IMG/VR virus record: IMGVR_UViG_3300030099_006714
Location: 1-30,442 of that record
Source: a virus
Length of the DNA: 30,442 bases
Strand: one strand, 5' to 3'
Below are positions 1-16,669 of this stretch, piece after piece. Within the stretch, counting starts at the first letter, position 1. Each line of letters opens with the position of its first letter. A program made the translations under genes and the position numbers. The notes beneath the pieces were generated by a model. That model had not been told where the DNA came from. It saw only the letters and a list, made by a program, of their open reading frames with translations, and made no database searches.

Positions 1-26
1 TAATAGGTGAAGGACAACGACACATT

Positions 27-257
27 ATGTACGACGAAACCACTTACCATATCTACGCCCAAGATAGATGTCTATATGCAAACTTAGAGGAAGAAGAGTT
101 TGAACAGACATGGGAGATGTTAAAGGTAATGGTTGGTTTACTGAAGACAGATTATACAGAGAGAGACTTATCATATATCAAACTAGGCCCCAAGTGCGGT
201 ATTGGTGGGCCAGGTAGAGTTCTTCCAACACCAATGTGGGAAGAAGATTCATATTGA
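27..257 (+). CDS. Conserved-looking small hypothetical phage protein
   Basis: The product is 76 residues, acidic in the middle (a run of Glu near residues 21-25) and ends in a Trp-Glu-Glu-Asp tail. It resembles small proteins of unknown function common in T4-like cyanophages (YDETTYHIYAQ-type N-terminus), judged from memory only. No catalytic motif, signal peptide or membrane segment is visible. The ATG at 27 follows a purine-rich AAGGA at 10-14, about 12 nt away, so initiation there is plausible. However, the frame is open upstream to the window edge, so the true start could lie outside. Tandem in-frame stops TAA-TAG at 1-6 in another frame probably end the previous gene. The stop codon TGA lies inside the -35 box of the next promoter. 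Function unknown. Confidence 0.7.
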   Translation: MYDETTYHIYAQDRCLYANLEEEEFEQTWEMLKVMVGLLKTDYTERDLSYIKLGPKCGIGGPGRVLPTPMWEEDSY

Positions 258-282
258 CAACTATATAAATGGATGTTATAAT
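254..282 (+). promoter_or_regulatory. Perfect sigma70-type promoter (TTGACA-17-TATAAT)
   Basis: TTGACA occupies 254-259 and TATAAT occupies 277-282, separated by exactly 17 bases. Both hexamers match the bacterial vegetative consensus with no mismatch. The predicted transcription start is near 289, leaving a leader of about 17 nt before the ATG at 306. The -35 box overlaps the stop codon of the upstream gene. Within the spacer, TATAAAT at 264-270 also resembles a T4 late box, so early and late signals may overlap. T4-like cyanophages are known to use host-like promoters for early genes; use at this site is inferred. Confidence 0.75.
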
Positions 283-285
283 TGA

Positions 286-299
286 ATTGAAATTTCAAT
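286..299. promoter_or_regulatory. 14-bp perfect palindrome at predicted transcription start
   Basis: ATTGAAATTTCAAT at 286-299 is a perfect inverted repeat with no spacer. It begins 4 bases after the -10 box and covers the predicted start point near 289. Its position fits an operator for a dimeric repressor, or simply an AT-rich leader; no cognate regulator is visible in the window. Confidence 0.4.
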
Positions 300-305
300 A
301 AAACT

Positions 306-1088
306 ATGGCCAAAGGATTTACAGTAAAAACTGTGCCACCAAAACCCAAGAAGAAAGCTGCCGATTGGGATATACAAGCAATTAAAGAAAGGTTTAAAGG
401 TAAGAAGATTGTATTCTGCTTACCAGGTCGTGGATGTTCATATATCTTTTTAAAGAATTTTGTACAGATGTGTTTTGACATGGTACAAAATGGAATGAGT
501 ATTCAGATCTCACAAGATTACTCATCAATGGTTAACTTTGCACGTTGTAAAGTATTAGGTGCAAATGTTCTTCGTGGTCCTAATCAGAAACCTTGGGATG
601 GTAAACTAGAGTATGATTACCAATTATGGATTGACTCGGATATTGTCTTTAACACTGACAAGTTTTGGCAGTTATGTGATCTTGCTTTACCTGCAGAGGA
701 TTCAGATAGGAAGGAAGCAGAGATTGCTGCAGGATGGTATGCAACAGAAGATGGTAGCACAACCTCTGTCGCACACTGGCTAGAAGAAGATGACTTCCGT
801 AAGAACGGTGGAGTCATGAATCACGAGACTGTAGAGTCCATTGGAAAGCGTCAGAAGCCTTTCACCGTTGACTACACAGGTTTCGGTTGGGTCATGATTA
901 AGAATGGTGTCTTCGAGAACCTTGAATACCCTTGGTTTGCTCCTAAAATGCAACAGTTTGAGTCTGGAGCAGTTCAGGATATGTGCGGAGAAGACGTATC
1001 GTTCTGTTTAGATGCGATTGACAAGGGTTATGATATCTGGTGCGACCCTCGGATACGTGTTGGCCACGAAAAAACTCGTGTTATCTAA
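306..1088 (+). CDS. GT-A-fold glycosyltransferase-like protein
   Basis: The product is 260 residues. After a Lys/Pro-rich N-terminus (residues 1-20), a strand of the form KKIVFCLPGRG starts near residue 32. LWIDSDIVF puts a DxD motif at D110-S-D112, the usual nucleotide-sugar/metal site of GT-A glycosyltransferases. GEDVSFC at 228-234 matches the acidic (E/D)D position that often carries the catalytic base, and H254 near the C-terminus could complete the metal site. These motifs support a sugar transferase, perhaps modifying a virion or host component; donor and acceptor cannot be read from the sequence. No signal peptide or membrane segment is evident. No clear Shine-Dalgarno precedes the ATG at 306, but that ATG sits about 17 nt after the predicted transcription start. 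It is expressed from its own promoter rather than the late boxes used downstream. Confidence 0.7.
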   Translation: MAKGFTVKTVPPKPKKKAADWDIQAIKERFKGKKIVFCLPGRGCSYIFLKNFVQMCFDMVQNGMSIQISQDYSSMVNFARCKVLGANVLRGPNQKPWDGKLEYDYQLWIDSDIVFNTDKFWQLCDLALPAEDSDRKEAEIAAGWYATEDGSTTSVAHWLEEDDFRKNGGVMNHETVESIGKRQKPFTVDYTGFGWVMIKNGVFENLEYPWFAPKMQQFESGAVQDMCGEDVSFCLDAIDKGYDIWCDPRIRVGHEKTRVI

Positions 1089-1124
1089 CCGTCGTGTCTC
1101 GATTTACTATGGAGAATAACTAAA

Positions 1125-1265
1125 ATGGCAATGAGAAGTCCAACTGGGGTCGAAATGATCGAAACTCGACCCAAAAAAACTCGTCAAGGAAGAGGAAAGC
1201 ATACTAAATATGCCGCTTCCTCTCGAAATAAAGCAAAAAAACGCTCACGAGGACAGGGAAACTAA
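1125..1265 (+). CDS. 46-residue very basic protein
   Basis: An ATG at 1125 opens a 46-codon frame ending in TAA at 1263-1265. GGAG at 1111-1114 lies 10 nt before the ATG and is a good ribosome binding site. The product starts MAMRSPTGVEMIETRPKK and is strongly basic from residue 16 onward, with Lys/Arg at roughly 40 percent of positions and a Gly/Ser-rich end. It resembles short basic proteins that I recall next to gene 25 in T4-like cyanophages. Basic composition suggests nucleic-acid binding or a capsid-internal or scaffolding role, but nothing proves this. It lies 36 nt after the glycosyltransferase gene and may share its transcript. Confidence 0.7.
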   Translation: MAMRSPTGVEMIETRPKKTRQGRGKHTKYAASSRNKAKKRSRGQGN

Positions 1266-1284
1266 AAAAGGTAAAATATACTTG

Positions 1285-1291
1285 CTAAATA
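1285..1291 (+). promoter_or_regulatory. Putative T4-type late promoter box CTAAATA for gene 25
   Basis: CTAAATA at 1285-1291, in an AT-rich 48-base gap, resembles the T4 late box TATAAATA. It ends 22 nt before the GTG start of gp25, the same distance seen before gp13 and within a base of that before gp15. Transcription would start near 1298. Confidence 0.6.
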
Positions 1292-1313
1292 AAGATATAT
1301 TTGCCTAATAATA

Positions 1314-1715
1314 GTGCCCGTCCAACGCATAAGTAAGACATTTAAAGACATTAGCATGTCTTTTAAGGTTAATCCCTTAAATGATGACCTTATTGCGGTT
1401 AAAAATGAGACTGCTATAGCTCGCTCTCTTCGTAATCTGGTGCTCACTGCACCAGGAGAGCGATTTTTTAATGAGAATTTAGGTTCAAACGTCAATAATC
1501 TCTTATTTGAGAATATGGATGACGTTACTGCTTCATCTATTAAGGATGAAATCCAAAATACCATAAACAATTTTGAACCAAGAGTTAAATTATTAAGAAC
1601 TCAAGTCTCACCAAACTTTGATACACTTGAATTTGATGTTGTTATAAAATATGAGATCATTGGAGTGGAAGCACAACCCCAACAATTATCATTTGCCCTC
1701 GAGCCAGCACGATAA
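1314..1715 (+). CDS. 25: gp25-like baseplate wedge subunit
   Basis: The product is 133 residues, close to the T4 gp25 length. gp25 is the lysozyme-like wedge protein that connects the baseplate to the first ring of the sheath in contractile tails. The family signature lies at residues 42-70: a hydrophobic stretch leading to PGERFF, then LG and LLFENMD. NNFEPRV follows near 86-92, matching T4's RNYEPRI region. The start is GTG at 1314; an ATG at 1356 would remove the conserved first residues (PVQRISKTFKD), so GTG is preferred. No Shine-Dalgarno is evident. The stop overlaps the gp6 start (TAATG at 1713-1717), implying translational coupling. The upstream CTAAATA suggests late transcription. 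Confidence 0.93.
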   Translation: MPVQRISKTFKDISMSFKVNPLNDDLIAVKNETAIARSLRNLVLTAPGERFFNENLGSNVNNLLFENMDDVTASSIKDEIQNTINNFEPRVKLLRTQVSPNFDTLEFDVVIKYEIIGVEAQPQQLSFALEPAR

Positions 1716-3862
1716 TGCCACTAGTTAATTTCTCCAATCTGGATTTTGACCAGATAAAAACAACAATAAAAGATTATCTTAGATCTAATTCCAATTTCAC
1801 TGACTATGATTTTGAAGGATCTAACTTATCGACGATCATTGATGTTCTGGCATACAATACTTACATCACTTCTTACAATGCCAACATGGTATCGAACGAA
1901 GTTTTTATTGATAGTGCAACATTAAGGGAAAATGTTGTCTCATTAGCACGTAATATTGGATATACTCCTACTTCTAAAAAGGCAGCTAAAGCAAATATAT
2001 CATTTTTTGTAGATACAACTAGTTATTCATCCACTCCTCAGACGGTTACTTTGAATAAAGGTCTTGCTTGCACTACAAATGTCTTCAATAATGAGTCTTT
2101 TACCTTTGCTTTACTTGATGATGTCACTGTTCCTGTCAAGCAAAACGTAGCTAACTTTGAAAATATTCAAATTTCTGAAGGAATTTACATTACTACTAAT
2201 TTTACAGTCAATTCTTTCGATCCAAATCAGAGATTTATCCTTCCAAACTCTAATATTGACACTGATAGCATTAGAGTAACAGTCAAACCTTCTCAATTAT
2301 CGAATACAAGTCGAAAATATAGAAAAGCTGCAAGTTTATTTGAGATAAATGGTGAATCTGCTATCTATTTTTGCCAAGAAATCGAAAATGAAAGATATGA
2401 ATTGATTTTTGGTGATGGTATTTTTGGTAAAAAGTTGGAATCTCCTAGTTTTATTGAAGTTTCCTACCTAGTAACCAATGGAGAAGCTGCAAATGGCATC
2501 GGATCCTTTATATTTTCAGGAAAATTAACGTCAAGTAGAGATTCTGTTAATTTAACTGCAGGAATTTCCTTAGTTGCGACTAATAATGTTGCTGAAGGGG
2601 GTAAAAATATAGAAACTATCGAATCTATTAAGAAATATTCGACTCGAATTTACTCCTCACAGAATAGAGCAGTAACTTCAGCTGATTATGAGGCACTTTT
2701 ACCAACAATATATCCCGAAACTGATTCTGTTTCTGCTTTTGGTGGAGAAGAGTTAACTCCTCCTCAATTTGGAAAGGTTTTTGTAAGTGTAAAACCTACA
2801 AATGGAGCATATTTGTCTGGACAGATCAAAGAAAACATAAAAAGTCAAATTAAGAAGTATTCTGTATCAGGAATTGTTGTTGATATCATTGATTTGAAAT
2901 ATTTGTACATCGAACCTAACATTACAGCTTATTTTAATCCAAATTTAGCAAAATCTGCTAATTCAATCACTACAATTGTAAGTAGTAATGTAGAAACTTT
3001 CTCTAAATCTGCTGAAATTAACAGATTTGGAGCAAGATTCAAATATAGTAAATTTTTGAATTTAATTGATGGTAGTAGTGAAGGTATAACTTCTAATATT
3101 ACGACTATTAGTATAAGAAGGGATTTGAGAGTAGCGTTAAATAGTTTTGCGGAATACGAAATTTGTTACGGTAACAGATTTTTTGTACAAGATGGTGGAT
3201 ATAATATTAAGTCTTCTGGATTTAATATTGCTGGTCTAAGTGCAACTGTATATCTTAGTGATATGCCTGATGCTACTCATGAAAAAGGAACTATTGACTT
3301 ATTTGTCTTAGATTCTGAAACTCAACCTAAAATTGTTAAAAAATCTGTAGGGGTCATTGATTATATTAAAGGAGAGATTAAATTAACTCCAATTAATATT
3401 ACCAACACTGTTATTAACAAGGGATTCCCCCTAATTGAAATTTCTGCTATTCCATACTCTAATGATGTAATAGGACTTCAAGATTTGTACTTACAAATAG
3501 ATCTAAATCAAACAGAGGTTACTTCAAAACCTGATAATATTTCCTCTGGAGTAGATGTATCAGGAAGTAACTATCTTGTTACTTCAAGTTATGTAAATGG
3601 AAGTCTAGTTCGTGGTGGCCCTATATTTGCAACTGAGTCACTCACCACAACCACTGTATCGAACCGTGTAGGCAGCGAAACTATGACTTCTACTACAACA
3701 TCCACAACATCCACAACATCGTCCTCTGGTTCCGCTTCTGGCGGTTCTACAGGTGGTTCTACTGGTGGTAGCACTGGCGGTGGTGGTATGGGTGGTGGAG
3801 GCAGCACTGGCGGTGGTGGTGGCACTGGCGGTGGCGGCGGCGGTTACGGCGGCGGTTATTAA
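1715..3862 (+). CDS. 6: gp6-like baseplate wedge subunit with Gly-rich tail
   Basis: The product is 715 residues; T4 gp6 is about 660. gp6 forms the inner iris of the baseplate wedge and belongs to the Baseplate_J-type family. YDFEGSNLSTIIDVLAYNTY at residues 31-50 closely matches the T4 N-terminus (DYDFEGSRLNVLCDLLAYNT). IFGDGIFGKK near 230 and the RAVTSADYEALLPTIYPETD stretch near 320 match the central core. From about residue 656 the chain changes to Thr/Ser repeats and then almost pure Gly with Ser/Thr and a GYGGGY end. That tail is low-complexity, GC-rich at the DNA level and not present in T4 gp6. The gene overlaps the gp25 stop by one base. Confidence 0.93.
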   Translation: MPLVNFSNLDFDQIKTTIKDYLRSNSNFTDYDFEGSNLSTIIDVLAYNTYITSYNANMVSNEVFIDSATLRENVVSLARNIGYTPTSKKAAKANISFFVDTTSYSSTPQTVTLNKGLACTTNVFNNESFTFALLDDVTVPVKQNVANFENIQISEGIYITTNFTVNSFDPNQRFILPNSNIDTDSIRVTVKPSQLSNTSRKYRKAASLFEINGESAIYFCQEIENERYELIFGDGIFGKKLESPSFIEVSYLVTNGEAANGIGSFIFSGKLTSSRDSVNLTAGISLVATNNVAEGGKNIETIESIKKYSTRIYSSQNRAVTSADYEALLPTIYPETDSVSAFGGEELTPPQFGKVFVSVKPTNGAYLSGQIKENIKSQIKKYSVSGIVVDIIDLKYLYIEPNITAYFNPNLAKSANSITTIVSSNVETFSKSAEINRFGARFKYSKFLNLIDGSSEGITSNITTISIRRDLRVALNSFAEYEICYGNRFFVQDGGYNIKSSGFNIAGLSATVYLSDMPDATHEKGTIDLFVLDSETQPKIVKKSVGVIDYIKGEIKLTPINITNTVINKGFPLIEISAIPYSNDVIGLQDLYLQIDLNQTEVTSKPDNISSGVDVSGSNYLVTSSYVNGSLVRGGPIFATESLTTTTVSNRVGSETMTSTTTSTTSTTSSSGSASGGSTGGSTGGSTGGGGMGGGGSTGGGGGTGGGGGGYGGGY
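3694..3720 (+). repeat. 9-bp tandem repeat encoding Ser/Thr tract in gp6
   Basis: A nine-base unit (ACAACATCC) repeats almost three times within the gp6 reading frame, encoding Thr-Thr-Ser units. It keeps frame, so copy changes would lengthen or shorten the linker without breaking the gene. Confidence 0.7.
3738..3859 (+). repeat. GGN/GGY-rich low-complexity tract (poly-Gly tail of gp6)
   Basis: A run dominated by GGT and GGC codons with interspersed Ser/Thr codons encodes the last 40 or so residues of gp6. It is far richer in G than the surrounding AT-rich DNA. Its complement reads as a proline-rich frame, which is an artefact. Confidence 0.85.
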
Positions 3863-3898
3863 CTCTCATATTCTTACTAAGATCAACATATACAAAAA

Positions 3899-6800
3899 AT
3901 GATATCTACAGACATACAAAGAGTTCAACTGCAAAGTATAGTTGCAAATCAACTCCCTTCTTTTGTAAAGGATGACTTTCCTTTAATAGCTGACTTTTTA
4001 AAAGAATATTATATTTCTCAAGAATTTCCAGGAGCATCTGCTGATTTAATACAGAATATTGATGAGTATTTGAAATTAGAGTCGTTAACTAATAATGCAC
4101 AAGAAACTGAGTTGGGAGCAGATATTTCGTACAATGATACTACTATTACAGTAGCATTTGATTTATCTAAAGAAGTTTTTGGTACATATCAATTCCCTGA
4201 TAGAGATGGATTGATTCAAATTGGTGATGAAATTATTTTATATTCAGAAAAAACTAAAACTTCGTTTACAGGATGTAGAAGAGGATTTAGTGGAGTAACT
4301 TCTTATCAAGCTTTAAATGATACTGATCGCTTAACTTTTTCAACTTCCAGCACTGCGAAACATAAGGGTGGAGATAAAATTGTTAATTTAAGTGCATTAC
4401 TTTTTAATGAATTTTTACTTAAGATAAAAAATCAATTAAGTCCTGGTTTTGAGAATAGAACTTTAGCTGATGATTTAAATCAAAGACTGTTTATATCAAG
4501 ATCTAAAGATTTTTATCAAGCTAAAGGAACAGATGAATCCTTTAGTATGCTTTTTGGTGCTTTGTATGGAGAATCTGTAGAAGTATTAAAACCTCAAGAT
4601 TTTACTTTTAGACCATCTGATGCTGATTATAGAGTTACAAAGGATTTAGTTGTTCAAGCAATAGATGGAGATCCCTCTCAATTATTGAATAGCACGTTAT
4701 TTCAAGATGCTTATACTGACTATAATATAAATCCAGCGTATTCACCTATCTCTGCAATTGAAAAAATAACTTTTAATAGTAAGGATTATTATAAGTTAAG
4801 TCTTGATTTTAACTATGCTAAAGATATTCCTCTACAGGGAAGTATTTTTGGAGAGTTCAGTGTTCACCCTAATACCAAAGTCATAACTCCTGTAAGCATT
4901 GGTGCTAGTGTAATTGATGTAGATTCTACAATAGGATTCCCTAATTCAGGTGAATTGGCAGTTGAATCAGGAATATTAACTTACCGATCAAAATCATTAA
5001 ACCAGTTCTATGGTGTAGGAGTAGCAAATACTACAGATATTGGTACTACATCTATTATTGAGTCAAAAGAGGATATAAGATTAAATGTTGAAGCTTATGG
5101 TTACATTGGTGTTGGAACTGCGAATAAAGTAACTGTTAAAGTAGGATCAGTTTTAGCAGAACCAATAATTCAAACTGATACTTATTATTATTCTATTAAT
5201 GATACTGCAAAAGTACAATCTTTAGGAATTACAACTTCAGGACCAAATGTTGATAATTGGTTTTATAATGTAGCTACAAGTTATGATGTAAAATCAATAG
5301 TTTTGGTTGATTCATCAGATTTTACATACACTATAGAAACTTTTACTGAAAATAATTTTCAATTAGGAGATGCAGTTACAGTTATAGACACAGCTGGTAA
5401 CAATAAGGATTCGCTTGTAAATGAAGTTATAAATCCTTTTAAATTCTCCATTAGAGGACAAGGATCTCTCTCTTCTATTAAAAGTGTACAAAGAAATATA
5501 ACCAGAGCAAAGGTTGATGTAGCTTTAAAGGATTATTACTATATTGATAATTATTTTGCTAATATTCAAAATACCTATGTGGATTTTGATGGAAGTGTTT
5601 TAGTTGCTTCTCCATCCATTCCTCATTATTTTAATGGACCTTTAGATTTTTATGATAGAAAAGTTATATTAAGTGGATCTTACAACGGAGATACTTTTAC
5701 AGTTTTAGATGTAAATGATCATGGATATTATACAGGAGATGCAGTTTACTATAATTCTTTTGATATAATTTCAGAAGATTTCTTAGGTAATGAGAGTATA
5801 AGTGTTAGTAAGTTTCCTGAAATAAATCCAGGAATTTTCTTTGTAAAAAGAGTAAATAAAAATCAATTTCAACTTGCTACAAGTCCAAGTAATATTAATA
5901 ATAATAATTTTGTATCTGTTTCGGGTATTGTAACTTCTAATACCATACAGCCTCTTAGTTATTTTGATAAGATAGTTGATAATCAATTACTTTTAAAACA
6001 AATAAATGAACCAAGTGACGAAAGTGGTACTTATATCACTGAACCTGGTAGTAGAACAGGTATTTTGATAAATGGTGTTGAGATTCTTAATTACAAATCC
6101 ACAGATACAGTTTATTATGGGCCACTTAATAAAATAGACATAAGTGCAGAGGGAAAAGACTATGATATTTTAAATCCTCCACTTATACACATTGAAGATA
6201 CCGTTGGTAGTGGTGCAACTGCCATTGCAGCTATTAGAGGAAATTTAAATTCTATTGATATCGTAGATCCTGGTTTTGATTATGTTTCAGATCCTATTAT
6301 TACGATCACAGGTGGAAATGGTGTTGGTGCTGAAGCTTTTGCTAATACTATTCTTGCAACTCATGATGTTTCATTCAATGCTTTTGGTGTAAAAGAGTCA
6401 GAATCTGCTCGTATCAACTTAGAGGCTGATACTATCGGTTTTTCTACTTTTCATAAGTTTAGAAATGGTGAAAAAGTAATTTATAAACCAGATGGAGGAA
6501 CATTAGTTGGTGGAATCACTACTGACGCTGTTTACTATGTTCATACTGTTGGAGTGTCCACAGTAAAACTTTATGAAACTCAGGATCAAGCAATTTCCGC
6601 AGGAATTGAAACAGTTTCTTTAACTTCTTTTGGAACAGGAATACAAAGATTACAATCTTTTGATAAAAAGAAAATTTTATCTAATATTATCATTAAAAAT
6701 TCAGGTATAGGTTATGAAAACAAAAAAAGAACGATTATTTCAGCAACAGGAATAAACACGGCTCTTAATCAGATAAACATAGATGATCATGGATATAAAT

Positions 6801-9800
6801 CTGGAGAAATTATAGAATATTCATATGATAAAGATAGAATAAGTGGTATTAACTCAAATACTCAATATTTGGTTACTGAAGTAGATGCTAATAACTTTAA
6901 ATTATCTAGTGTTGGAGTTGGAACAACTGCTAAGTCTTTCTATTTTGATAATAATGAATATATTGATTTTTCTGTTGCAGGCTTAGGTACAGGAACTCAT
7001 TCTTTTAACTATGAACCAATTGTAGTTGATTTAAGTGGTGAGATTGGAGTCACTACTGCTAGTGGACAAGATTTTAGAGCTAAAATTCAACCTTTGTTTA
7101 GAGGATTCATTGATTCAGTTCAAGTTATAAATTCTGGTGCAGATTATGGTTCTTCTGAAATTCTTAATTATGATAGGCAACCTCTTATTACAACTAAAAC
7201 AGGTACAGGAGCTCAAGTTACCCCAGTTATTAATAATGGAAAACTTGTTGATGTTTTAGTTGTAAATGAAGGTTTTGGATATAACTCTCCTCCATCATTA
7301 GAATTAGAAACAGATGGGGCTGGAAAATATGCTGAACTAGTACCCGTTTTAGAAAATGGACAACTTAAGAGTGTAAGAATCCATAATGCAGGTATTGGTT
7401 ATACTAATAGAGTAATAGTAAATGTAATTCCAAGTGGATCCCGTGCTAAATTTAAAGCAAATATTCAAAATTGGACAGTTAATTTATTTGAAAAATCTTT
7501 GGATATCATTTCTAGTGATGATGGTATTTTAGATGCTGCAGAAAATACAGATTTAGGTATTCAATATACTCATTTATATGCACCTAGAAAATTAAGAGAA
7601 TCTGTATATGTCAGAAATCAAAATAATGATATTAAATATGGACTTCTTGATTTAGAGAGAGTTGATGGACAAGAAGTATCTGCTTCATTCCATTCTCCTA
7701 TAATAGGATGGGCTTATGACGGAAATCCCATTTATGGTCCTTATGGGTACACTACTCCCACTGGAGGAGCAGTAAGAGCTATGGAGTCTGGTTATAAACC
7801 AGTAACTAGTGATACTAGACCTCCTTTATCTGTTTTCCATCAAGGATTTTTTGTTGAAGATTTTGTATTTGATAATTCTGGAGATTTGGATGAGTATAAT
7901 GGACGTTTCTGTGTAACACCAGATTATCCAAATGGAGTATATGCATATTTTGCGACTATCAATTCTGGTAGTGTTGAAAGTTCAGGTGCATTTAATAAGT
8001 ATAAGATTCCAAAATTCCCTTATTTGATTGGTAATGCTTTCCATTCAAAACCAAATTCTTTTAACTATGATAAGTCTAATAATCAAACAGACTATGATTT
8101 TAATTCAGCAAAATGTTTTAGAAATACGACTCCCTATGCCTTAACAAAAAATAATGCATCTTATGATTTTTTAGTTCAACCAAATAAAAAAGCAACTCCT
8201 ATTGTTGATGTTGTTTTATCATCTTCAGGTCAAATTGATAATGTAGGAATTCTGACTGGAGGAAACAATTATCAAGTAGGTGAAAAAATTCTTTTTGAAT
8301 CTTTACCTGGTTCTCAAACTGCTAAGGCTAAAATTAAAGAAGTAGAAGGAAAAGAAGTTACTAATATTAGTGTAGCAACTAGTTCAATAACAAATTTAGA
8401 AATAGCTCCTTATGATTCAAATGGAACTTTTGTTGCTATTTCTACATTACCCCATAATTTTGTAAATAAAAATTTAGTTTCACTATCAGGATTTAATACT
8501 TCTATCAGTTCTCTTGAGGGAAGTTTTAATATTGGTGTAAGAACTGAGACATTAAATTTAACTGGAGGAGTTAGCACTACAGGTGTTACTGGGTTGGTAA
8601 CATATTTTGGAGTATCTGGATCATTAAATAGTGACTTATTATCGATTGGTGTTAATGATACTCTTGGAATAGGAACAGAAGATGTAAAAGTTCTTGCAGT
8701 TGATAAAAAAAATCAGAGATTAAGAGTTATTAGAGCTCAAAATAATACCGTATCTATTGCTCATACTGCTACATCTGTGATAACTGAGGATTCTAGAAAA
8801 TTCACATATCTATCGTCTCCTCAAAATAGTGTAGTTTTTGAATTAAATAAGGAAATTTATTTTGAACCTAAGGAGGCTTTAGGAATTGGAACTCTGACTG
8901 GTGTGGGTATTGGAACTACTATTTCATTCTCAAATCCAGGTGCGGGTTTAACTCAGATTTTTGTTCAAACTCAATCTATTTTCTTACCTGATCATGAATT
9001 AAATACTGGTGATGTTTTAACTTATAAGAACAATGGAGGCGATTCCATAGGTGTATCAACTGATGGAACCACGGAATTTACTTTACCTAATAATTCAACT
9101 CTTTATGTTGGTAAGATTTCAAATGATCTTATAGGAATTTCAACTTTTAAAGTAGGTGTAGGCACAACTGGTACTTTTGTAGGAGTTGCAGCGACAACTG
9201 AAACTAGAGGATTACTAAGATTAACTGGATTTGGCACAGGTGTTCATCATAGTTTTGAAACTAGTAAAGATAATGTAGTTACTGCTGAAGTAACTAAGAA
9301 TGTGGTTACGGTGGCAACTGCGTCAACTCATGCATTACTCTTTGATGACACTGTAACCGTAGATGTTAAACCAGGAATAATAACTTCAGTTACTGTAAAA
9401 TATAACGATTTCAATAGAAGAATAGTTTTTGATCCTAAAGATTTTGCCTCAGGGGATGTTGATGTAACAAACAACACTATTAGTATTAGTGATCATCAGT
9501 TAAACAGTGGAGACAAGGTAATTTACACTGCATCAACAGCTGCTGGTGGACTTGAAAATAATAAAATTTACTATATCTTTAGACAATCCACAAATAAAGT
9601 AAAACTTTGTTTAACTAGACATCAATCTCTACAATTTACTCCTGAGGTTGTTGATATAACTTCTGCGAGTGCTGGAACTTTATCACCAATCAACCCTTCT
9701 TTAAATGTTTATAATAACAATACTGTAAACTTTAATCTTTCAGATTCTTCTTTAGGAGATAAGATAGGAGTTAGTTCTGTAGCTGCTTTTGATTTTAATT

Positions 9801-12800
9801 TATATTCTGATAGAAATTGCACTCAAGTATTTAAATCTACAACTCTAGATGATAAATTTGAAGTAATTAAAACAGGAACAGTTGGAGTTTCTACTGATGC
9901 TGAGTTAGCTTTAAGAGTATCTGATGGTCTCCCTTCAATTTTATATTATAAATTTGTTCCAGTTGGAGGCAATGATCTTTCAGAAAATAAAAAGGGTATT
10001 GTTATTGATAAAGAAGTTGATAATTATAATGAAATAAATGTGCGACAAAGTGTATTTGCAGGACAATTTGCTGTAACTGGAATTGGCACTACAACTACAT
10101 TTGATTATAATGTAATTGATACTCCTGAAAGATCCTCCTATAGTGCATCAGATGCAAAGATTAAATATTCCACTGATTCTACAAGGGCATATGGAGGGAT
10201 TGCTAAAGTTGAATTAACCTATAAAGGAAATAATTATACAGAGATTGTTGGTGTATCTTCCATTAAGAGTGGTATAGGAACTAAGGCAGTCTTAGAACCA
10301 TCCAGTACATCTATTGGTAAAATAATTTCAACTAATATAGAGGATATTGGATTTGATTATCCTAGTGATAATACTTTAAGACCTGTTTTAAATTTACCTG
10401 AAGTTCTTCAAATAGAATCATTAACTTCATTTGAATCTATTGGAATTAGCTCTGTAGGTAAAAATTATACGATTGCACCAAATCTAGTTGTTATTGATGG
10501 ATTTACTGGAGCACAGGTTAAAGATGTTGATATAGAATATGAAATTGGAGATTCTACAGTAACTATTCTAAAGAATACATTTGGAATGAATCCTGTAACT
10601 CCAACCATAATTCCAACTGCTAATGTTAATGGTATTGGTATTAATACCATCAGTTATAATATGTCTACCAAGGAGGTAACTGTAGCTATTAATACTAGTT
10701 TCAGTAGTGCCAGTGATATACCTTTATTTGTTGGAGATAAGGTTTTAATTGAAAACATAAGTGTAGGACTTGGAACAACAGGAACTGGTTATAACTCTTT
10801 GAATTATGGATATTCATTATTTGAATTAACAAAAACTCATTTTCCATTAGGAGGAAATGTTGGAGTTGTTACTTATAGTTTAGATGGATATATTGAAGAT
10901 AATATTTTTCCAGGAAACTTTGATGCTCTTAATTCAGCAGGTATAATTGTTCCTGAAAAATATTTCCCTCAATTTGATATTGCCTTAAAAACTAATAATT
11001 TCTTAACTGGTGAAAAAGTTACTTCAGGTAATATTGTAGGTAATGTTGAAAATTGGAATAATAAAATTGAGTTATTAAAAGTATCCACAGATTCTGAATT
11101 TAATATAGGAGATATTATAGTTGGTGAAACTTCACGCACTCAAGGAAAGGTTACTTCTAAAATTAATTTTGATGCTGAAATTCAATTACAAGCTGGATCA
11201 GTAGTTAAAAAAGGATGGTCAAGAGACACTGGATTCTTTAACAATAATTTAGAAAGACTTCCTGATAATAATTACTATCAGAATTTCTCTTATTCTTTAA
11301 AATCAAAAGTTAATTACAACACATGGGAGGAATCTGTTCATAATCTTAATCATCCTACTGGATTCTTAAAGTTTAGTGATTTGCAAGTGGTATCTACAGA
11401 CGACACTTCATCAAGTGTCTCTGCAGATGAAGCTGATCTCTTTGTCTTCATAGATTCTGAGCGTGTAATGGATATAAATTGTTATTCTGCATTTGATTTG
11501 GTCACAGAAAATTCTTTAAGTGTTAGTGATACTCAAACTGTTTCAGATGAAATATTTTTCAATTCTAGAGTTTTAACTGATTACTTTGAATCAGTTGGTA
11601 ATAGAGCTTTAGTCATTGATGATTTTAGTTCTGAGTTTAATAGTGATCCTAGAGGAACTAAGTTTTCTACTGTAGATACTTTTGATCTTGATCAAAAATC
11701 CGTTAAATATGTTACCTTAGTAAAAGATGCTACATTTACAGGAGAGAGACAAGTTCTTATGGTCTCTATTCTTAATGACGGAACTCAAATATATGTCAAT
11801 AATTATGGTAAAGAAGGAACTGTAAGTGATCTAGGATTCTTTGATGCAAATATAAGTGGTACGGAAGGTGAATTACAATTCTTCCCAACTAAATTTGCAA
11901 ATAATAATTACAACGTAAGTGCTATAAGTTTTGGTGTATTGGGAATCGGCACTGCAGGTATTGGATCTACGACTCTAGGAAGTAGTGTTGATATTAGATC
12001 TAGTACAGCAAGTGTTCCTGCTAATACCACTACAACTGTTGTCGGAATAGCATCCACTTATAGAAGCTCTAAACTTATTGTTCAAATAAGTGGTGATGAT
12101 GGTAATTTTGAATATGATGAGTTAAATGTTATTCATAATGGAACCACTGTGGATCTAATGGAATATGCACAACTTACCACCCACTCTGTTGATGAGTATG
12201 GTGCTGAAGTTGGATTGGGAACCTATGCAGCTGATATGAGTGATGGTGACATTAACATAGACTTTATTCCTACTGCTGGAATAGCATGTACCGTTAATAC
12301 TTTAAGAATATCGATAGCAAGCACTTTATCAACAGGAGTTGGAACTCAATTCTTAGGAGCAGGTGATGAGGATCTTGGATTTATTGATTCATCTTATACT
12401 CACATAGCATCATCAGGATCTCCTTTAGCACATAAAATTGCTGAGTATGGTATTAATAATACTTCTGAGGTAGATGATAATAATGCTGCTTATTACGTAA
12501 TTAGTGTTGAAGATACTGCTAACGAAGAATATGAAATGATAGAGGTGATTGTAGTTAACGATAGTTCAGAGGCTTATATTACTGAATATGGAAATGTAAC
12601 TACTAATGAAGGAGCAGTATATTCTGGATTAGGTACAGTTGGTGCTGCTGTTTCTACCACAACTTCACATACTCAACTATTCTATACTCCAAATGCAGGA
12701 ATTGGTGTTTCTGTACGTGTTTTCCAAACTGCTCTTCAAATCGCAGCAGAAAATTCTGATATTGATTCTGTTGATAGTATTGATTTAGGCACAGCTGAGA

Positions 12801-15800
12801 TTAATGCTGGATTTGGTCTTTATGAAGGAACTGAGATAGATGTGAAACGTGAATTTAATTTACAACATAATCAAAAAAATATTTTCTCTCGAACTTTTGA
12901 TGCAAGTGATACCACTATCGTTAACGTAACGGATAATACGGTTACCATTCCAGATCACTTCTTTGTGACTGGAGAAGAAATTACTTATGCTCAAGGTGGA
13001 ACTCCTATTAGTATTGCATCAACAACTATTTCAGGAATTGGAGTTACTACCCTTCTTCCTCCTAATCTCTTCCTTGTTAAGGTTGATAATCAGACAGTTA
13101 AGTTTGCTAAGACTGCATCAGATGCTTTAAAAGAGATTCCAAATATATTAGAATTTAGTGCTGTAGGTGTAGGTGCAGCTCACACTATATTTGCAAGAAA
13201 TCAAAATACTAAATGTTTAATTGCTATTGATAATGCGATACAATCACCTTTAGTGTCAACTGCTGTTACCACAGGGATTACAAGTGAAATTGGTATTGCC
13301 CAAAGAGTTGTAAAGGTCTCAGGGATAACCTCTTTCTTCGGTGGAGATTTGATTAAAATTAATGATGAAATAATGAAAATTAACACAGTGGGTCATGGAA
13401 CCACTAACGCACTGTTGGTTGAGCGTCCTTGGATGGGAACAAATTTAGGAGTGCATACAGAGAATTCTCTTGTAACTAAAGTTGATGGTGATTATCATAT
13501 TGTCAATAATAAAATTAGTTTCATCGCTGCTCCTCAAGGCCCTGTTCCCATAGGTAGCACTACCAATGCTCCTGATGACAGATATTGGGTAGGTATTACG
13601 ACTCACTCCACGTTCCAAGGAAGATCGTTCATGAGATCTGGAATTGAAGATAGTAGTAAGAGAACTTATGAAACTAATTATCTATTTGATGATATCTCAC
13701 ATGAATTTAATGGTATCAGCACTGCATATACGTTAAAAGTTAATGGAGAGAATGTAGCAGGATTCTCAACTGATAATGGTGTTGTTTTAATTAATGGTGT
13801 ATTCCAAGGACCAACAGGAGAGTTACTACAAAGTCAAGATTATTCTTTTGTAGAAGGAAACACTGGAATTAGTAGTGTAGTCTTTGCTGGAGTTGCAGCT
13901 TCTGTTGCTAGTGATCCTCAAAGTGGATCTATCCCTGTTGGTGGAATGATTATCTCTGTAGGTTCTACTGAAGGTCTGGGATATCAACCTCTTGTTGCTG
14001 CTGGAGGAACTGCTGTTATTTCTGCTGCTGGTACTGTAAGTTCTATCAGTATTGGTAACTCAGGTTCAGGTTACAGAGTAGGAGTTCAAACAACTGTAAA
14101 TGTTGCTATTCAAACAGGTACGAATGTTACACCACTCTTAATTGGTATTGGCACTGCTGCAATTACTAATGGACATATTACAGGAATAGCAATTACAAAT
14201 AATCAAGTAATTTACGTTCCTCGCTCAATTTCTGATGTTGGATACAGTTCTATAACTGGAGTTACAACAGTCACTACATCGACCTCACATGGTCTTCTAG
14301 TAGGGCAAGAAGTGAAGTTATCGGGAATTGCATTCACATGTGATTACCTCCCTGCTGTGGGCGTTCAGAGTGCCGTATACACTGCTTCTACAGGTATAAT
14401 GACTGTCACTACATCTAGTGCTCATGGACTAGCTGTAAGCGGTAAAAATAGTGATGTCATCTTAACTGGATTAGCATTTACATGTGCATTAGATAATGGT
14501 GGTTCTCTTCATTTATACCCTAGAACAACTGATCCTGCATTTGGTGGGACACCAGTTATAGGAGTAGCAAGTGCAACTCAATTTACAATTAATGCGGGTA
14601 TTTCAACTGTTCCAACATTCTATGTTTCAGGTGGTACGATACAACCTGCTTTAATAGCACCTAGAACCACTAATAATTCTGCAAGTGGAACTGATCCAGC
14701 TGCTCAAGGATCTACTGTTTTGACAATTATTGATAATACTTCATTCACAATTAATTCAGGTGTGTCAACAAGAGCACACTTCTATGCGAGAGGAGGTAGA
14801 GTTGATAGGGCGATGGATGTTGTGATTGACGATCCACTCTCTTACTCTAACATGTCTTTAATTTATAGTGATGAGTCGCCTGGTGGTGCAAATGCGGGAG
14901 TCGGAACTGAAGCAACTATTAATGTAGTGGTGGGACAAGGTTCAAGTGTTATTAGTTTTGAAATAGTAAATGAGGGATATGCTTATGCCAATGATCAAGT
15001 TCTAACAGTAGCGATTGGAGGAACCATAGGTATTCCAACTGATACAACTAAAACATTTGAAGAATTCAAAATCACCGTTGAAGATATTATGTCAGACCAA
15101 TTTGCTGCTTGGCATTTTGGTAACTTGGAAGTATTAGATAAGATTGAGAGTGAATTTGATGGAGTTACCAGATCATTTACTCTTAAGAAAGATAAGGATC
15201 CTGTTACCATTAGAGCAGCAGAAGGTTCTGATATTGATGTTCAGTCTACCCTTTTAGTATTCTTGAATGATATTCTACAAGTTCCTGGTGATGGTTATAC
15301 ATTGAGTGGAGGAAGTGTGCTTACATTTGCATCAGCTCCTAGAGGGCCTCAGGTAGAGGGTTCATTCAAAGGTGATACTTGTAAGATTTTATTCTATAAG
15401 GGAACTGGTGACCAAGATGTGATATTTAATGATGTAAGAAAATCTGTAAAAACGGGAGATATGTTGACCATTCGCCATAATAAAGAATTATGTGCTAGGT
15501 CAATAGAACAAGATCCTCGACTTGTAGAAGATGTGGTAGCCACTAATATTGTGGACACCAACGCTTATGTAGGTATGGGTATCAATGGAAGTCCTGACTG
15601 TAAGAGACCAGTTACTTGGTGTAAGCAAACTGCTGACCTAGTTGTTAATGGTCAAATCATTAGTAAGAGTAGGGAGGAAGATAATGCAGCAGTTAATCCC
15701 ACTACAGTTATTATTCAATCTGTGGGTGTTGGATCTACTGTTATCTTCACTGAAAGTTTGAAACCTTTCTTTGATCCTGAGAATGAAAATCAAGGTAATG

Positions 15801-16669
15801 TAAAAACACAAAAGGTTTCCATTACATCTCAAGATAATATTGTAGGAGCTGCTGCAACTGCTGTTGTATCAATCGCTGGAACTATATCTTCAGTATCCGT
15901 AAGTTTCGGAGGAACAGGATATACTTCTGCTCCTGATGTAATTATTGGTACACCTGTTGGATTAGGAACCACTACCAGAGCATCAGCAACCGCTACTCTT
16001 ACAGGAGATGCAGTTTCATCTATTACAGTTACCTCTCCTGGTACAGGATATACAACTGAAACTCCTCCTGAAGTTCTTATTGAAGTCCCATCTTTAACTA
16101 GAGAAGTAAATACTACTGGTAGTTACGAAGGTGACTTTGGAGAGATCATCGGAGTCTCAACAACATCTGTAGGGGTTGCATCGACTGGTGTTGTATTTGA
16201 CTTCTTTATTCCACCTAATTCTGTCTTAAGAGATAGTATTATAGCAGGAACTGCTGTTACTATTAGTGGAATCCAAACTGGTTATTACTTCACTGTAAGT
16301 AATAGTAATATTGGAAGTGGATTAACATCTCTATATCAAAATAATGGAGTTTTGGGTATAGGAACTACCTTTATAGATAATGTGTATGAAGTAGCTGCAG
16401 TATCTGTAGCACAGACTTCCACACCAGGAATTGCTCTAACATATGTTGCTCAAGTAACGGTTAGTGTAGATTCTTATAATGGTTTAATTAATGCTGGTTT
16501 GGGATATAGTGAATTCTTTGGTAATTATTCATGGGGAAGAATAGATATGGGTGCTAGAAGTTCTCCAAAAGCTTTTACTGCTTATACTAGTAACGGTTTT
16601 ACAGGACTTTCTACTTCTGCTGTTATCAGTAGAGTAACTCCTCTAAGATCTAAAGATTATTCCTCTTAA
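3899..16669 (+). CDS. Giant gp7-position baseplate wedge protein, 4256 residues
   Basis: This single uninterrupted frame of 12.8 kb lies between gp6 and gp8, the position of T4 gene 7 (product about 1030 residues). gp7 joins wedge subunits in the baseplate. Two gp7-like signatures are visible. SRSKDFYQAKG at 200-210, followed by FGALYGESVEV, matches the T4 SRSYDFYSTKG region. YYQNFSYSLKSKV at 2459-2471, then a Trp and HPTGF at 2485-2489, matches the T4 region with SRSYYVMKIKS and HPVGF. Between them lie about 2250 residues of beta-rich Gly/Thr/Ser modules, including a YHYH-like domain at about 1255-1395. After them come three tandem modules (about 2603-2950), HGxxxGD modules, paired FTC modules and GxGY repeats. 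No signal peptide or membrane segment is seen. No clear Shine-Dalgarno precedes the ATG. I recognise large homologues in marine T4-like phages. The wedge role is inferred; the extra modules may be adhesive or ruler-like. Confidence 0.85.
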   Translation: MISTDIQRVQLQSIVANQLPSFVKDDFPLIADFLKEYYISQEFPGASADLIQNIDEYLKLESLTNNAQETELGADISYNDTTITVAFDLSKEVFGTYQFPDRDGLIQIGDEIILYSEKTKTSFTGCRRGFSGVTSYQALNDTDRLTFSTSSTAKHKGGDKIVNLSALLFNEFLLKIKNQLSPGFENRTLADDLNQRLFISRSKDFYQAKGTDESFSMLFGALYGESVEVLKPQDFTFRPSDADYRVTKDLVVQAIDGDPSQLLNSTLFQDAYTDYNINPAYSPISAIEKITFNSKDYYKLSLDFNYAKDIPLQGSIFGEFSVHPNTKVITPVSIGASVIDVDSTIGFPNSGELAVESGILTYRSKSLNQFYGVGVANTTDIGTTSIIESKEDIRLNVEAYGYIGVGTANKVTVKVGSVLAEPIIQTDTYYYSINDTAKVQSLGITTSGPNVDNWFYNVATSYDVKSIVLVDSSDFTYTIETFTENNFQLGDAVTVIDTAGNNKDSLVNEVINPFKFSIRGQGSLSSIKSVQRNITRAKVDVALKDYYYIDNYFANIQNTYVDFDGSVLVASPSIPHYFNGPLDFYDRKVILSGSYNGDTFTVLDVNDHGYYTGDAVYYNSFDIISEDFLGNESISVSKFPEINPGIFFVKRVNKNQFQLATSPSNINNNNFVSVSGIVTSNTIQPLSYFDKIVDNQLLLKQINEPSDESGTYITEPGSRTGILINGVEILNYKSTDTVYYGPLNKIDISAEGKDYDILNPPLIHIEDTVGSGATAIAAIRGNLNSIDIVDPGFDYVSDPIITITGGNGVGAEAFANTILATHDVSFNAFGVKESESARINLEADTIGFSTFHKFRNGEKVIYKPDGGTLVGGITTDAVYYVHTVGVSTVKLYETQDQAISAGIETVSLTSFGTGIQRLQSFDKKKILSNIIIKNSGIGYENKKRTIISATGINTALNQINIDDHGYKSGEIIEYSYDKDRISGINSNTQYLVTEVDANNFKLSSVGVGTTAKSFYFDNNEYIDFSVAGLGTGTHSFNYEPIVVDLSGEIGVTTASGQDFRAKIQPLFRGFIDSVQVINSGADYGSSEILNYDRQPLITTKTGTGAQVTPVINNGKLVDVLVVNEGFGYNSPPSLELETDGAGKYAELVPVLENGQLKSVRIHNAGIGYTNRVIVNVIPSGSRAKFKANIQNWTVNLFEKSLDIISSDDGILDAAENTDLGIQYTHLYAPRKLRESVYVRNQNNDIKYGLLDLERVDGQEVSASFHSPIIGWAYDGNPIYGPYGYTTPTGGAVRAMESGYKPVTSDTRPPLSVFHQGFFVEDFVFDNSGDLDEYNGRFCVTPDYPNGVYAYFATINSGSVESSGAFNKYKIPKFPYLIGNAFHSKPNSFNYDKSNNQTDYDFNSAKCFRNTTPYALTKNNASYDFLVQPNKKATPIVDVVLSSSGQIDNVGILTGGNNYQVGEKILFESLPGSQTAKAKIKEVEGKEVTNISVATSSITNLEIAPYDSNGTFVAISTLPHNFVNKNLVSLSGFNTSISSLEGSFNIGVRTETLNLTGGVSTTGVTGLVTYFGVSGSLNSDLLSIGVNDTLGIGTEDVKVLAVDKKNQRLRVIRAQNNTVSIAHTATSVITEDSRKFTYLSSPQNSVVFELNKEIYFEPKEALGIGTLTGVGIGTTISFSNPGAGLTQIFVQTQSIFLPDHELNTGDVLTYKNNGGDSIGVSTDGTTEFTLPNNSTLYVGKISNDLIGISTFKVGVGTTGTFVGVAATTETRGLLRLTGFGTGVHHSFETSKDNVVTAEVTKNVVTVATASTHALLFDDTVTVDVKPGIITSVTVKYNDFNRRIVFDPKDFASGDVDVTNNTISISDHQLNSGDKVIYTASTAAGGLENNKIYYIFRQSTNKVKLCLTRHQSLQFTPEVVDITSASAGTLSPINPSLNVYNNNTVNFNLSDSSLGDKIGVSSVAAFDFNLYSDRNCTQVFKSTTLDDKFEVIKTGTVGVSTDAELALRVSDGLPSILYYKFVPVGGNDLSENKKGIVIDKEVDNYNEINVRQSVFAGQFAVTGIGTTTTFDYNVIDTPERSSYSASDAKIKYSTDSTRAYGGIAKVELTYKGNNYTEIVGVSSIKSGIGTKAVLEPSSTSIGKIISTNIEDIGFDYPSDNTLRPVLNLPEVLQIESLTSFESIGISSVGKNYTIAPNLVVIDGFTGAQVKDVDIEYEIGDSTVTILKNTFGMNPVTPTIIPTANVNGIGINTISYNMSTKEVTVAINTSFSSASDIPLFVGDKVLIENISVGLGTTGTGYNSLNYGYSLFELTKTHFPLGGNVGVVTYSLDGYIEDNIFPGNFDALNSAGIIVPEKYFPQFDIALKTNNFLTGEKVTSGNIVGNVENWNNKIELLKVSTDSEFNIGDIIVGETSRTQGKVTSKINFDAEIQLQAGSVVKKGWSRDTGFFNNNLERLPDNNYYQNFSYSLKSKVNYNTWEESVHNLNHPTGFLKFSDLQVVSTDDTSSSVSADEADLFVFIDSERVMDINCYSAFDLVTENSLSVSDTQTVSDEIFFNSRVLTDYFESVGNRALVIDDFSSEFNSDPRGTKFSTVDTFDLDQKSVKYVTLVKDATFTGERQVLMVSILNDGTQIYVNNYGKEGTVSDLGFFDANISGTEGELQFFPTKFANNNYNVSAISFGVLGIGTAGIGSTTLGSSVDIRSSTASVPANTTTTVVGIASTYRSSKLIVQISGDDGNFEYDELNVIHNGTTVDLMEYAQLTTHSVDEYGAEVGLGTYAADMSDGDINIDFIPTAGIACTVNTLRISIASTLSTGVGTQFLGAGDEDLGFIDSSYTHIASSGSPLAHKIAEYGINNTSEVDDNNAAYYVISVEDTANEEYEMIEVIVVNDSSEAYITEYGNVTTNEGAVYSGLGTVGAAVSTTTSHTQLFYTPNAGIGVSVRVFQTALQIAAENSDIDSVDSIDLGTAEINAGFGLYEGTEIDVKREFNLQHNQKNIFSRTFDASDTTIVNVTDNTVTIPDHFFVTGEEITYAQGGTPISIASTTISGIGVTTLLPPNLFLVKVDNQTVKFAKTASDALKEIPNILEFSAVGVGAAHTIFARNQNTKCLIAIDNAIQSPLVSTAVTTGITSEIGIAQRVVKVSGITSFFGGDLIKINDEIMKINTVGHGTTNALLVERPWMGTNLGVHTENSLVTKVDGDYHIVNNKISFIAAPQGPVPIGSTTNAPDDRYWVGITTHSTFQGRSFMRSGIEDSSKRTYETNYLFDDISHEFNGISTAYTLKVNGENVAGFSTDNGVVLINGVFQGPTGELLQSQDYSFVEGNTGISSVVFAGVAASVASDPQSGSIPVGGMIISVGSTEGLGYQPLVAAGGTAVISAAGTVSSISIGNSGSGYRVGVQTTVNVAIQTGTNVTPLLIGIGTAAITNGHITGIAITNNQVIYVPRSISDVGYSSITGVTTVTTSTSHGLLVGQEVKLSGIAFTCDYLPAVGVQSAVYTASTGIMTVTTSSAHGLAVSGKNSDVILTGLAFTCALDNGGSLHLYPRTTDPAFGGTPVIGVASATQFTINAGISTVPTFYVSGGTIQPALIAPRTTNNSASGTDPAAQGSTVLTIIDNTSFTINSGVSTRAHFYARGGRVDRAMDVVIDDPLSYSNMSLIYSDESPGGANAGVGTEATINVVVGQGSSVISFEIVNEGYAYANDQVLTVAIGGTIGIPTDTTKTFEEFKITVEDIMSDQFAAWHFGNLEVLDKIESEFDGVTRSFTLKKDKDPVTIRAAEGSDIDVQSTLLVFLNDILQVPGDGYTLSGGSVLTFASAPRGPQVEGSFKGDTCKILFYKGTGDQDVIFNDVRKSVKTGDMLTIRHNKELCARSIEQDPRLVEDVVATNIVDTNAYVGMGINGSPDCKRPVTWCKQTADLVVNGQIISKSREEDNAAVNPTTVIIQSVGVGSTVIFTESLKPFFDPENENQGNVKTQKVSITSQDNIVGAAATAVVSIAGTISSVSVSFGGTGYTSAPDVIIGTPVGLGTTTRASATATLTGDAVSSITVTSPGTGYTTETPPEVLIEVPSLTREVNTTGSYEGDFGEIIGVSTTSVGVASTGVVFDFFIPPNSVLRDSIIAGTAVTISGIQTGYYFTVSNSNIGSGLTSLYQNNGVLGIGTTFIDNVYEVAAVSVAQTSTPGIALTYVAQVTVSVDSYNGLINAGLGYSEFFGNYSWGRIDMGARSSPKAFTAYTSNGFTGLSTSAVISRVTPLRSKDYSS
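4481..4597 (+). other. gp7-like signature, first half (within giant protein)
   Basis: This stretch encodes residues 195-233. FISRSKDFYQAKGTDESF then MLFGALYGESVEV aligns by eye with the T4 gp7 segment containing SRSYDFYSTKG and FKVLYNEEVEIE. This is the main evidence that the giant protein contains a wedge core. The T4 sequence is from memory. Confidence 0.65.
6139..7460 (+). repeat. GxGYxxxPxVxI-type beta repeats in giant protein (first group)
   Basis: The encoded chain contains repeated units of a strand, then (D/N/S)-x-G-x-x-Y, then a Pro and a second strand: PGFDYVSDPIITI, SGADYGSSEIL, EGFGYNSPPSLEL and AGIGYTNRVIVNV. Linkers read GxGAxA. The spacing of about 35-45 residues suggests stacked beta units, as in fibre-like proteins. 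Related copies are found elsewhere in this gene, in gp8, in the DUF4815 protein and in gp14. Confidence 0.65.
7661..8083 (+). other. YHYH-like domain embedded in giant protein
   Basis: Residues about 1255-1395 contain GWAYDGNPIYGPYGY at 1270-1284, LDEYNGRFCVTP from 1330, VYAYFATI near 1346-1353 and FPYLIGNAF near 1373. This order matches the YHYH domain (DGFPIYGPYG, LDxCNGR, YHYHAT, FPYxIG). The namesake YHYH is Y-A-Y-F here, so both histidines are missing. The canonical Cys of the LDxCNGR motif is Tyr, while a Cys occurs three residues after the Arg. The domain may be a structural relic or a sugar-binding or metal-free variant; its function is unknown even in bacteria. Confidence 0.7.
11273..11389 (+). 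other. gp7-like signature, second half (within giant protein)
   Basis: Residues 2459-2497 read YYQNFSYSLKSKV, a Trp near 2475, HPTGF at 2485-2489, then a hydrophobic strand. T4 gp7 has SRSYYVMKIKSNLP, a Trp and HPVGF in the same order near its C-terminal third. The distance from the first gp7-like signature is about 2250 residues, against roughly a hundred or so in T4 as I recall. Confidence 0.65.
11705..12745 (+). repeat. Three tandem beta modules in giant protein
   Basis: Three successive units begin near residues 2603, 2720 and 2864. Each has a strand, then (N/D)-(D/G)-(G/T/S) with a hydrophobic strand and a Y-(G/A) turn: LNDGTQIYVNNYGK, HNGTTVDLMEYAQLT and NDSSEAYITEYGNVT. Each ends with an (F/Y)-x-P-(T/N) strand (FFPTKF, FIPTAG, FYTPNAG). 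The third copy is the most closely related to the second. This resembles duplicated jelly-roll-like modules, but the fold is inferred. Confidence 0.65.
12945..13900 (+). other. Conserved late segment of giant protein: HGxxxGD, GDEI and adhesin-like modules
   Basis: In order the protein shows PDHFFVTGEEITY near 12951 (a further HGxxxGD module) and INDEIMKINTVG near 13356 followed by RPWMGTN. Next come APQGP and DDRYWVGITTHSTFQGRSFM near 13550-13630. Last is an EFNGISTAYTL strand near 13705 leading to INGVFQGP near 13791. A second EF(N/D)G module recurs at about 15152-15390 (EFDGVTRSFTL, then LLVFLNDILQVPG). I recognise this order as typical of marine T4-like phage structural proteins. Function unknown; surface attachment is possible. 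Confidence 0.5.
14262..14815 (+). repeat. Paired HGL/FTC modules in giant protein
   Basis: Two adjacent units read TSTSHGLLVGQEVKLSGIAF then TC, and TSSAHGLAVSGKNSDVILTG then LAFTC. The second continues to YPRTTDPA. Downstream, two further look-alike stretches read FTINAGISTVPTFYVSGGTI and FTINSGVSTRAHFYARGGR. Two nested duplications are therefore visible in about 550 bases. Confidence 0.6.

Follow-up and report, generated by a model that had tools for sequence, protein, structure and literature searches.

A glycosyltransferase gene of a T4-like cyanophage is preceded by a promoter of the host sigma70 type that carries, between its two hexamers, a third conserved element, TA-N-ATA, which is new and specific to this gene as judged by comparison with related phages. 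We consider it probable (about 0.82) that this gene-specific promoter, used by the host primary sigma factor, drives the glycosyltransferase early or before the late programme, apart from the late gp25-gp6-gp7 unit. The window, that is the whole stretch of 30,442 nucleotides analysed, is a fragment of such a phage (Kyanoviridae-like) with gp25, gp6, a very long ORF at the position of gp7, gp8, neck proteins, a tail sheath stabilizer and a small terminase. The records closest to it are those of Synechococcus and Prochlorococcus myoviruses. The following features of the window are discussed:

27-257, + strand: small upstream gene (phrog_2626), ending with a TGA inside the -35 hexamer
254-259, + strand: -35 hexamer TTGACA, no mismatch; TTGAC before the gene in 149 of 181 non-redundant relatives
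262-267, + strand: spacer element TANATA, here TATATA; 135 of 149 relatives, few substitutions on the gene tree
264-271: late-like box TATAAATG, overlapping the TANATA element; one mismatch to the T4 late box
277-282, + strand: -10 hexamer TATAAT, no mismatch, 17-bp spacer; TATAAT, TATGAT, TAAAAT or TAGAAT in most relatives
286-299, + strand: perfect 14-bp palindrome ATTGAAATTTCAAT, dyad axis 16 nt after the first -10 base; possible operator
289-290, + strand: predicted transcription start, from its position and a conserved G column 7 nt after the -10; leader of about 17 nt
306-1088, + strand: glycosyltransferase gene (phrog_1574, T4-GC 102), predicted GT-A fold, DSD motif
1285-1291, + strand: late box CTAAATA before gp25, where the late unit begins

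The promoter and its gene

Homologues of the glycosyltransferase are the last conserved gene of a plastic small-ORF region in S-SM2, P-SSM2, S-CAM9, S-SSM7, ACG-2014f, P-TIM68 and S-SRM01. In these seven genomes a few small or metabolic genes come next, and then gp25-gp6; the genes found between the glycosyltransferase and gp25 in relatives are purM, CP12, ferredoxin, speD and 2OG oxygenase. The original prediction placed the promoter inside a late structural region, which does not hold: relatives show the gene at a border instead, between the plastic region and gp25, where the late genes begin. Farther downstream in the window, a 4256-residue ORF (3899-16669) occupies the position of gp7, the baseplate wedge initiator, in relatives, and the S-SM2 annotation likewise has a very long gp7 (63546-76016).

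An exact TTGACA-17-TATAAT is found once in the window against 0.05 expected from dinucleotide shuffles of the window. The perfect consensus, initially taken to be rare, is indeed improbable as a chance event yet nothing unusual among these phages, with twelve TATAAT sites of this type in S-SM2 and fifteen in P-SSM2. TTGAC-N16-18-TATAAT is distributed between the gene strand and the other strand 12:0 in S-SM2 and 15:0 in P-SSM2.

Homologous genes were collected with four cyanophage queries plus the window's own. The consensus is matched at 11 or 12 of its 12 positions in 202 of the 285 non-identical upstream regions. Thinning, with S-TIM5-like regions left out, gave 181 non-redundant upstream regions, and TTGAC-N17/18-TANNNT precedes the glycosyltransferase in 149 of them; comparison with relatives, which the original prediction had proposed, thus bears out the conservation of both hexamers. 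Membership of the aligned set of 149 was conditional on TTGAC and on the TA and final T of the -10, so that their zero changes within it are no evidence; the spacer columns are unselected. The relatives are non-independent samples, and a FastTree tree served for counting changes only. Upstream of the -35, each column undergoes about 60 changes on this tree and is unconserved; conservation therefore begins at the promoter. A conserved G column at offset 35 of the promoter alignment lies at the expected start distance, and transcription would most likely begin at about 289, inside the palindrome.

By this conservation the promoter is a genuine sigma70-type promoter, kept before one glycosyltransferase gene in most related marine cyanophages. 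It has the -35 and -10 hexamers and the spacer of 16-18 bp of sigma70-type early promoters, and early genes of cyanomyoviruses are thought to use the unmodified host RNA polymerase (PMC2984593). Consensus hexamers, a 17-bp spacer, gene-strand bias and a presumed early-gene role are shared with the host sigma70-type early promoters of S-PM2 and Syn9, from which the present promoter differs by the conserved TANATA in the spacer and by its retention at one gene across most relatives. Because a sigma70-type promoter with both hexamers is conserved in relatives, the glycosyltransferase is best expected to be expressed ahead of the late programme or independently of it.

The promoter (254-282) lies directly before a glycosyltransferase gene and the TGA of the upstream ORF (255-257) sits within the -35 hexamer, both as first described. 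The gene product belongs to phrog_1574, and residues D110 and D112 are invariant in the alignment. It gave no match in Pfam or NCBIfam. The top PDB matches of its AlphaFold model (pLDDT 88) are mostly GT-A enzymes (E ~1e-5, TM ~0.45-0.5), so that assignment as a GT-A glycosyltransferase with a DXD motif is supported by the predicted fold. The promoter suggests a need for the glycosyltransferase before virion assembly, which would point to a role in modifying the host or something made early, and not a virion part.

The spacer element and the late box

TANATA is present in the spacer of 135 of the 149 aligned promoters at a near-fixed position, against a mean of 9 and a maximum of 17 in shuffled spacers. 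At other gene-strand TTGAC-N-TATAAT sites, compiled from seven phage genomes, it occurs once in 53. The letter N is T in 53, C in 37, G in 30 and A in 15 of the 135 elements; it changes 43 times on the tree, versus 11-30 times for its neighbours (11-25 for the A-T-A columns) and a background near 60. A reverse, protein-independent search of all viral contigs with the composite motif TTGACA-N4-6-TANATAAT-N3-5-TATGAT yielded at least 119 sites with enough downstream sequence. Among the matches listed, the glycosyltransferase is the next gene at 115 of 119 sites, and its start codon mostly lies 22-24 nt past the -10. Both searches hence indicate that the element is almost exclusive to the glycosyltransferase promoter.

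One of the four sites that are not before a glycosyltransferase among the matches listed is TTGACATTGGATAAATAATATTATATGAT (L439, 8991-9019). The ORF that follows it resembles by eye a gp32-type ssDNA-binding protein.

The late box of cyanophages is NATAAATA (PMC2984593). Late boxes of S-SM2 structural genes read [N]ATAAATA or CTAAATA, with a strong strand bias (ATAAATA 39:4, CTAAATA 21:2), and the bias is weak for ATACATA (14:9), ATATATA (10:4) and ATAGATA (19:15). Of 213 distinct relatives, 203 have [ACG]TAAATA within 80 nt upstream of gp25 and one has a sigma70 site, and the adjacent units are thus under different promoter classes.

The spacer was originally said to hold a late-like box, and the window does carry TATAAATG at 264-271, one mismatch away from the T4 late box; it corresponds neither to TATAAATA nor to [AC]TAAATA. 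What relatives conserve is TA-N-ATA, in which A is the rarest letter at N (15 of 135), so that the box is no regular late promoter, and this function was discarded for the general case. The spacers of 15 of the 149 relatives do hold a true late box, [AC]TAAATA, and none of the 40 boxes at loci where phrog_661 is the gene directly upstream has A at N. The likeness to a T4-like late promoter (TATAAATA; NATAAATA in cyanophages) is that of a similarly shaped AT-rich box, whereas N is seldom A, the box lies within a sigma70 promoter, and the canonical case is the neighbouring gp25 promoter.

Other candidates considered in this region were discarded. Reading of positions 240-306 reveals neither the NtcA pattern (GTA-N8-TAC) nor the Pho box (CTTA-N7-CTTA), and a second sigma70 promoter one turn upstream, with the spacer box as its -10, has no conserved -35 columns at the required place.

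The palindrome and the adjoining phrog_661 family

Perfect palindromes of 14 bp are at chance level in the AT-rich window (3 versus 3.05 expected in first-order Markov sequences), and only the position of ATTGAAATTTCAAT is notable, not its length. Palindromes of at least 12 bases occur within 36 nt upstream of the start codon in 24 loci against 3.4 in shuffles. In the promoter-aligned set, palindromes of at least 8 bases share an axis 16 nt after the first -10 base in 27 loci, with more at 17 and 18, and ATTGAAATTTCAAT of the window falls on this common axis. The sequences found there are mainly TGTAATTACA, common in relatives of P-SSM2, TGAAATTTCA, found in near relatives of the window, GTAACGTTAC and TGAATCGATTCA, besides others. 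A palindrome of at least 10 bases lies near the axis in 26 of 149 promoters, with 17 state changes on the tree, and partner permutation at axis 16 gives z = 2.1.

The palindrome is exact at 286-299 over the predicted start, as first noted, but its sequence is shared by close relatives only; a minority of the others have different palindromic sequences on the same axis. Owing to this distribution, repression through an operator is possible and unproven, and we view the operator as a reasonable hypothesis for some lineages rather than as an established feature. An RNA hairpin at the palindrome would be weak (-1.9 kcal/mol) and is unlikely because the predicted start falls inside the palindrome. 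A genome-wide regulon marked by GTAATTACA was also rejected in P-SSM2, with five sites only and no clear excess over a control pattern.

Phrog_661, a family of 56-65 residues listed without function, immediately precedes the promoter in 44 of 135 loci (e.g. L139, 1276-1449; S-SRM01, L090, 2717-2890). Weak matches to the Pfam MazE_antitoxin family are given by 24 of 43 members (best E 9.7e-5), and 12 members match the NCBIfam AbrB model. The best PDB folds for its predicted structure (pLDDT 86.5) are MazE, SpoVT and AbrB, with probabilities of 0.95-1.00 and E-values of only 0.02-0.24. The family appears, from this model, to have the MazE/AbrB/SpoVT swapped-hairpin fold. It is present in the glycosyltransferase neighbourhood of P-SSM2, S-SRM01 and ACG-2014f, and was not found in S-SM2, P-TIM68, S-SSM7 or the visible part of the window. 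The spacer box is kept in 40 of 44 loci with phrog_661 and in 68 of 70 with phrog_2626 directly upstream. Since it is kept with either kind of upstream gene, and where phrog_661 was not found, phrog_661 is unlikely to be its sole ligand.

A further motif, TATATAA, lies at most 75 nt before phrog_661 in 42 of 42 loci (e.g. L139, 1201-1275), as TATATAAAA in 34, and precedes phrog_2626 in 41 of 63. In the S-SRM01 genome CTATATAAAA has a single occurrence, just before phrog_661. TATATAA upstream of phrog_661 and phrog_2626 is possibly a further phage promoter or an autoregulatory site.

Mechanism and alternative readings

We favour a model in which the host primary sigma factor would transcribe the glycosyltransferase early, and in relatives also the small and metabolic genes up to gp25, the late gp25-gp6-gp7 unit having its own late promoter. 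TA-N-ATA, at about -24 to -19, most likely binds a protein governing when or how strongly the glycosyltransferase promoter alone is used, and the palindrome at the start may be a lineage-specific addition strengthening such control. The original prediction of expression early or throughout infection under repression is thus retained for the conserved sigma70-type promoter, from which early expression is best inferred, and repression by an operator is a possibility only, the palindrome being present in a minority. Tentatively, TA-N-ATA could be where a switch under phage control binds a host-sigma70 promoter that serves only the glycosyltransferase across T4-like cyanophages, the disfavoured A at N barring use as a late promoter, so that the gene would be shut off or modulated as the late programme begins. 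Such a switch may be without precedent, none being described in the literature that we reached. The timing of early and middle genes in T4-like cyanophages, which are devoid of MotA, AsiA, Alt and Mod, is described as unclear (PMC2984593). A single promoter with a gene-specific conserved motif is a tractable handle on this question. It offers a motif and a gene to work on, the late unit alongside to serve as internal control and, in many relatives, a candidate DNA-binding protein encoded nearby.

Several other readings account for part of these observations. The start-point palindrome, and perhaps the spacer box, could be the operator of an early promoter repressed by a dimeric phage protein such as the MazE/AbrB-like phrog_661. 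The shared axis of palindromes of several sequences, their excess before the start codon and the occurrence of phrog_661 directly upstream, in the same neighbourhood in the isolate genomes that have it, agree with such a repressor. We find it doubtful nonetheless, with long palindromes in so few promoters, their many state changes, the low z of the permutation, the lack of phrog_661 in the visible part of the window, S-SM2 and P-TIM68, and a spacer box kept beside phrog_2626 as well. A plain strong early promoter, in which the spacer element tunes DNA flexibility for sigma70 and neither palindrome nor box binds a regulator, has a similarly minor chance of being correct. TA-rich spacers are flexible, and other consensus promoters of these phages do without TANATA; yet the element is position-specific and varies freely at N but not beside it, and 52 of the 53 other sigma70 sites lack it.

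An unlikely reading is that of a composite promoter, with the host sigma factor acting on the hexamers early and gp55 on TANATA later to give middle or continuous expression. Overlapping early and late promoters were proposed for middle genes of S-PM2, and also in RB49 (PMC2984593), and share with the present site sigma70 hexamers overlapped by a late-like box; the box here is mostly off the late consensus. TANATA resembles NATAAATA, and composite use is conceivable for the 15 promoters with a true late box in the spacer. The scarcity of A at N, its absence beside phrog_661, the weak strand bias of the ATACATA, ATATATA and ATAGATA boxes in S-SM2 and the canonical box of the nearby gp25 argue against it. 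Least likely, at long odds, is a promoter-stem-loop (PeSL) cassette for modular gene exchange, in which unrelated upstream genes end exactly in the -35. The upstream TGA stop is nested in TTGACA in 82 of 135 loci, several unrelated upstream protein families among them, and the upstream region is plastic. PeSL cassettes of T4-type phages, as cited in PMC4503421, likewise have an early promoter where exchangeable upstream genes join, but combine it with a terminator-type stem-loop. No terminator-like stem-loop was found in positions 1-4000 of the window, the weak RNA hairpin of the palindrome would be interrupted by the predicted start, and most loci fall in only two upstream families.

Early expression would not be universal, as the TTGAC promoter is absent in 32 of the 181 relatives and a late box precedes the gene in 15 of these, mostly at a distance of about 70-80 nt. 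A different conserved promoter region, TTGCAT/TTGCAA-N17-TANAAT, whose -10 follows a GTGG, is found at most 70 nt before the gene in L181, L218, L315, L334 and about a dozen more loci, which mostly have a late box 70-80 nt upstream of the glycosyltransferase. ACG-2014f-like relatives (L253-L257, L091) lack a sigma70 promoter and carry other perfect palindromes, TGAAACGTTTCA and CATACTAGTATG, before the gene.
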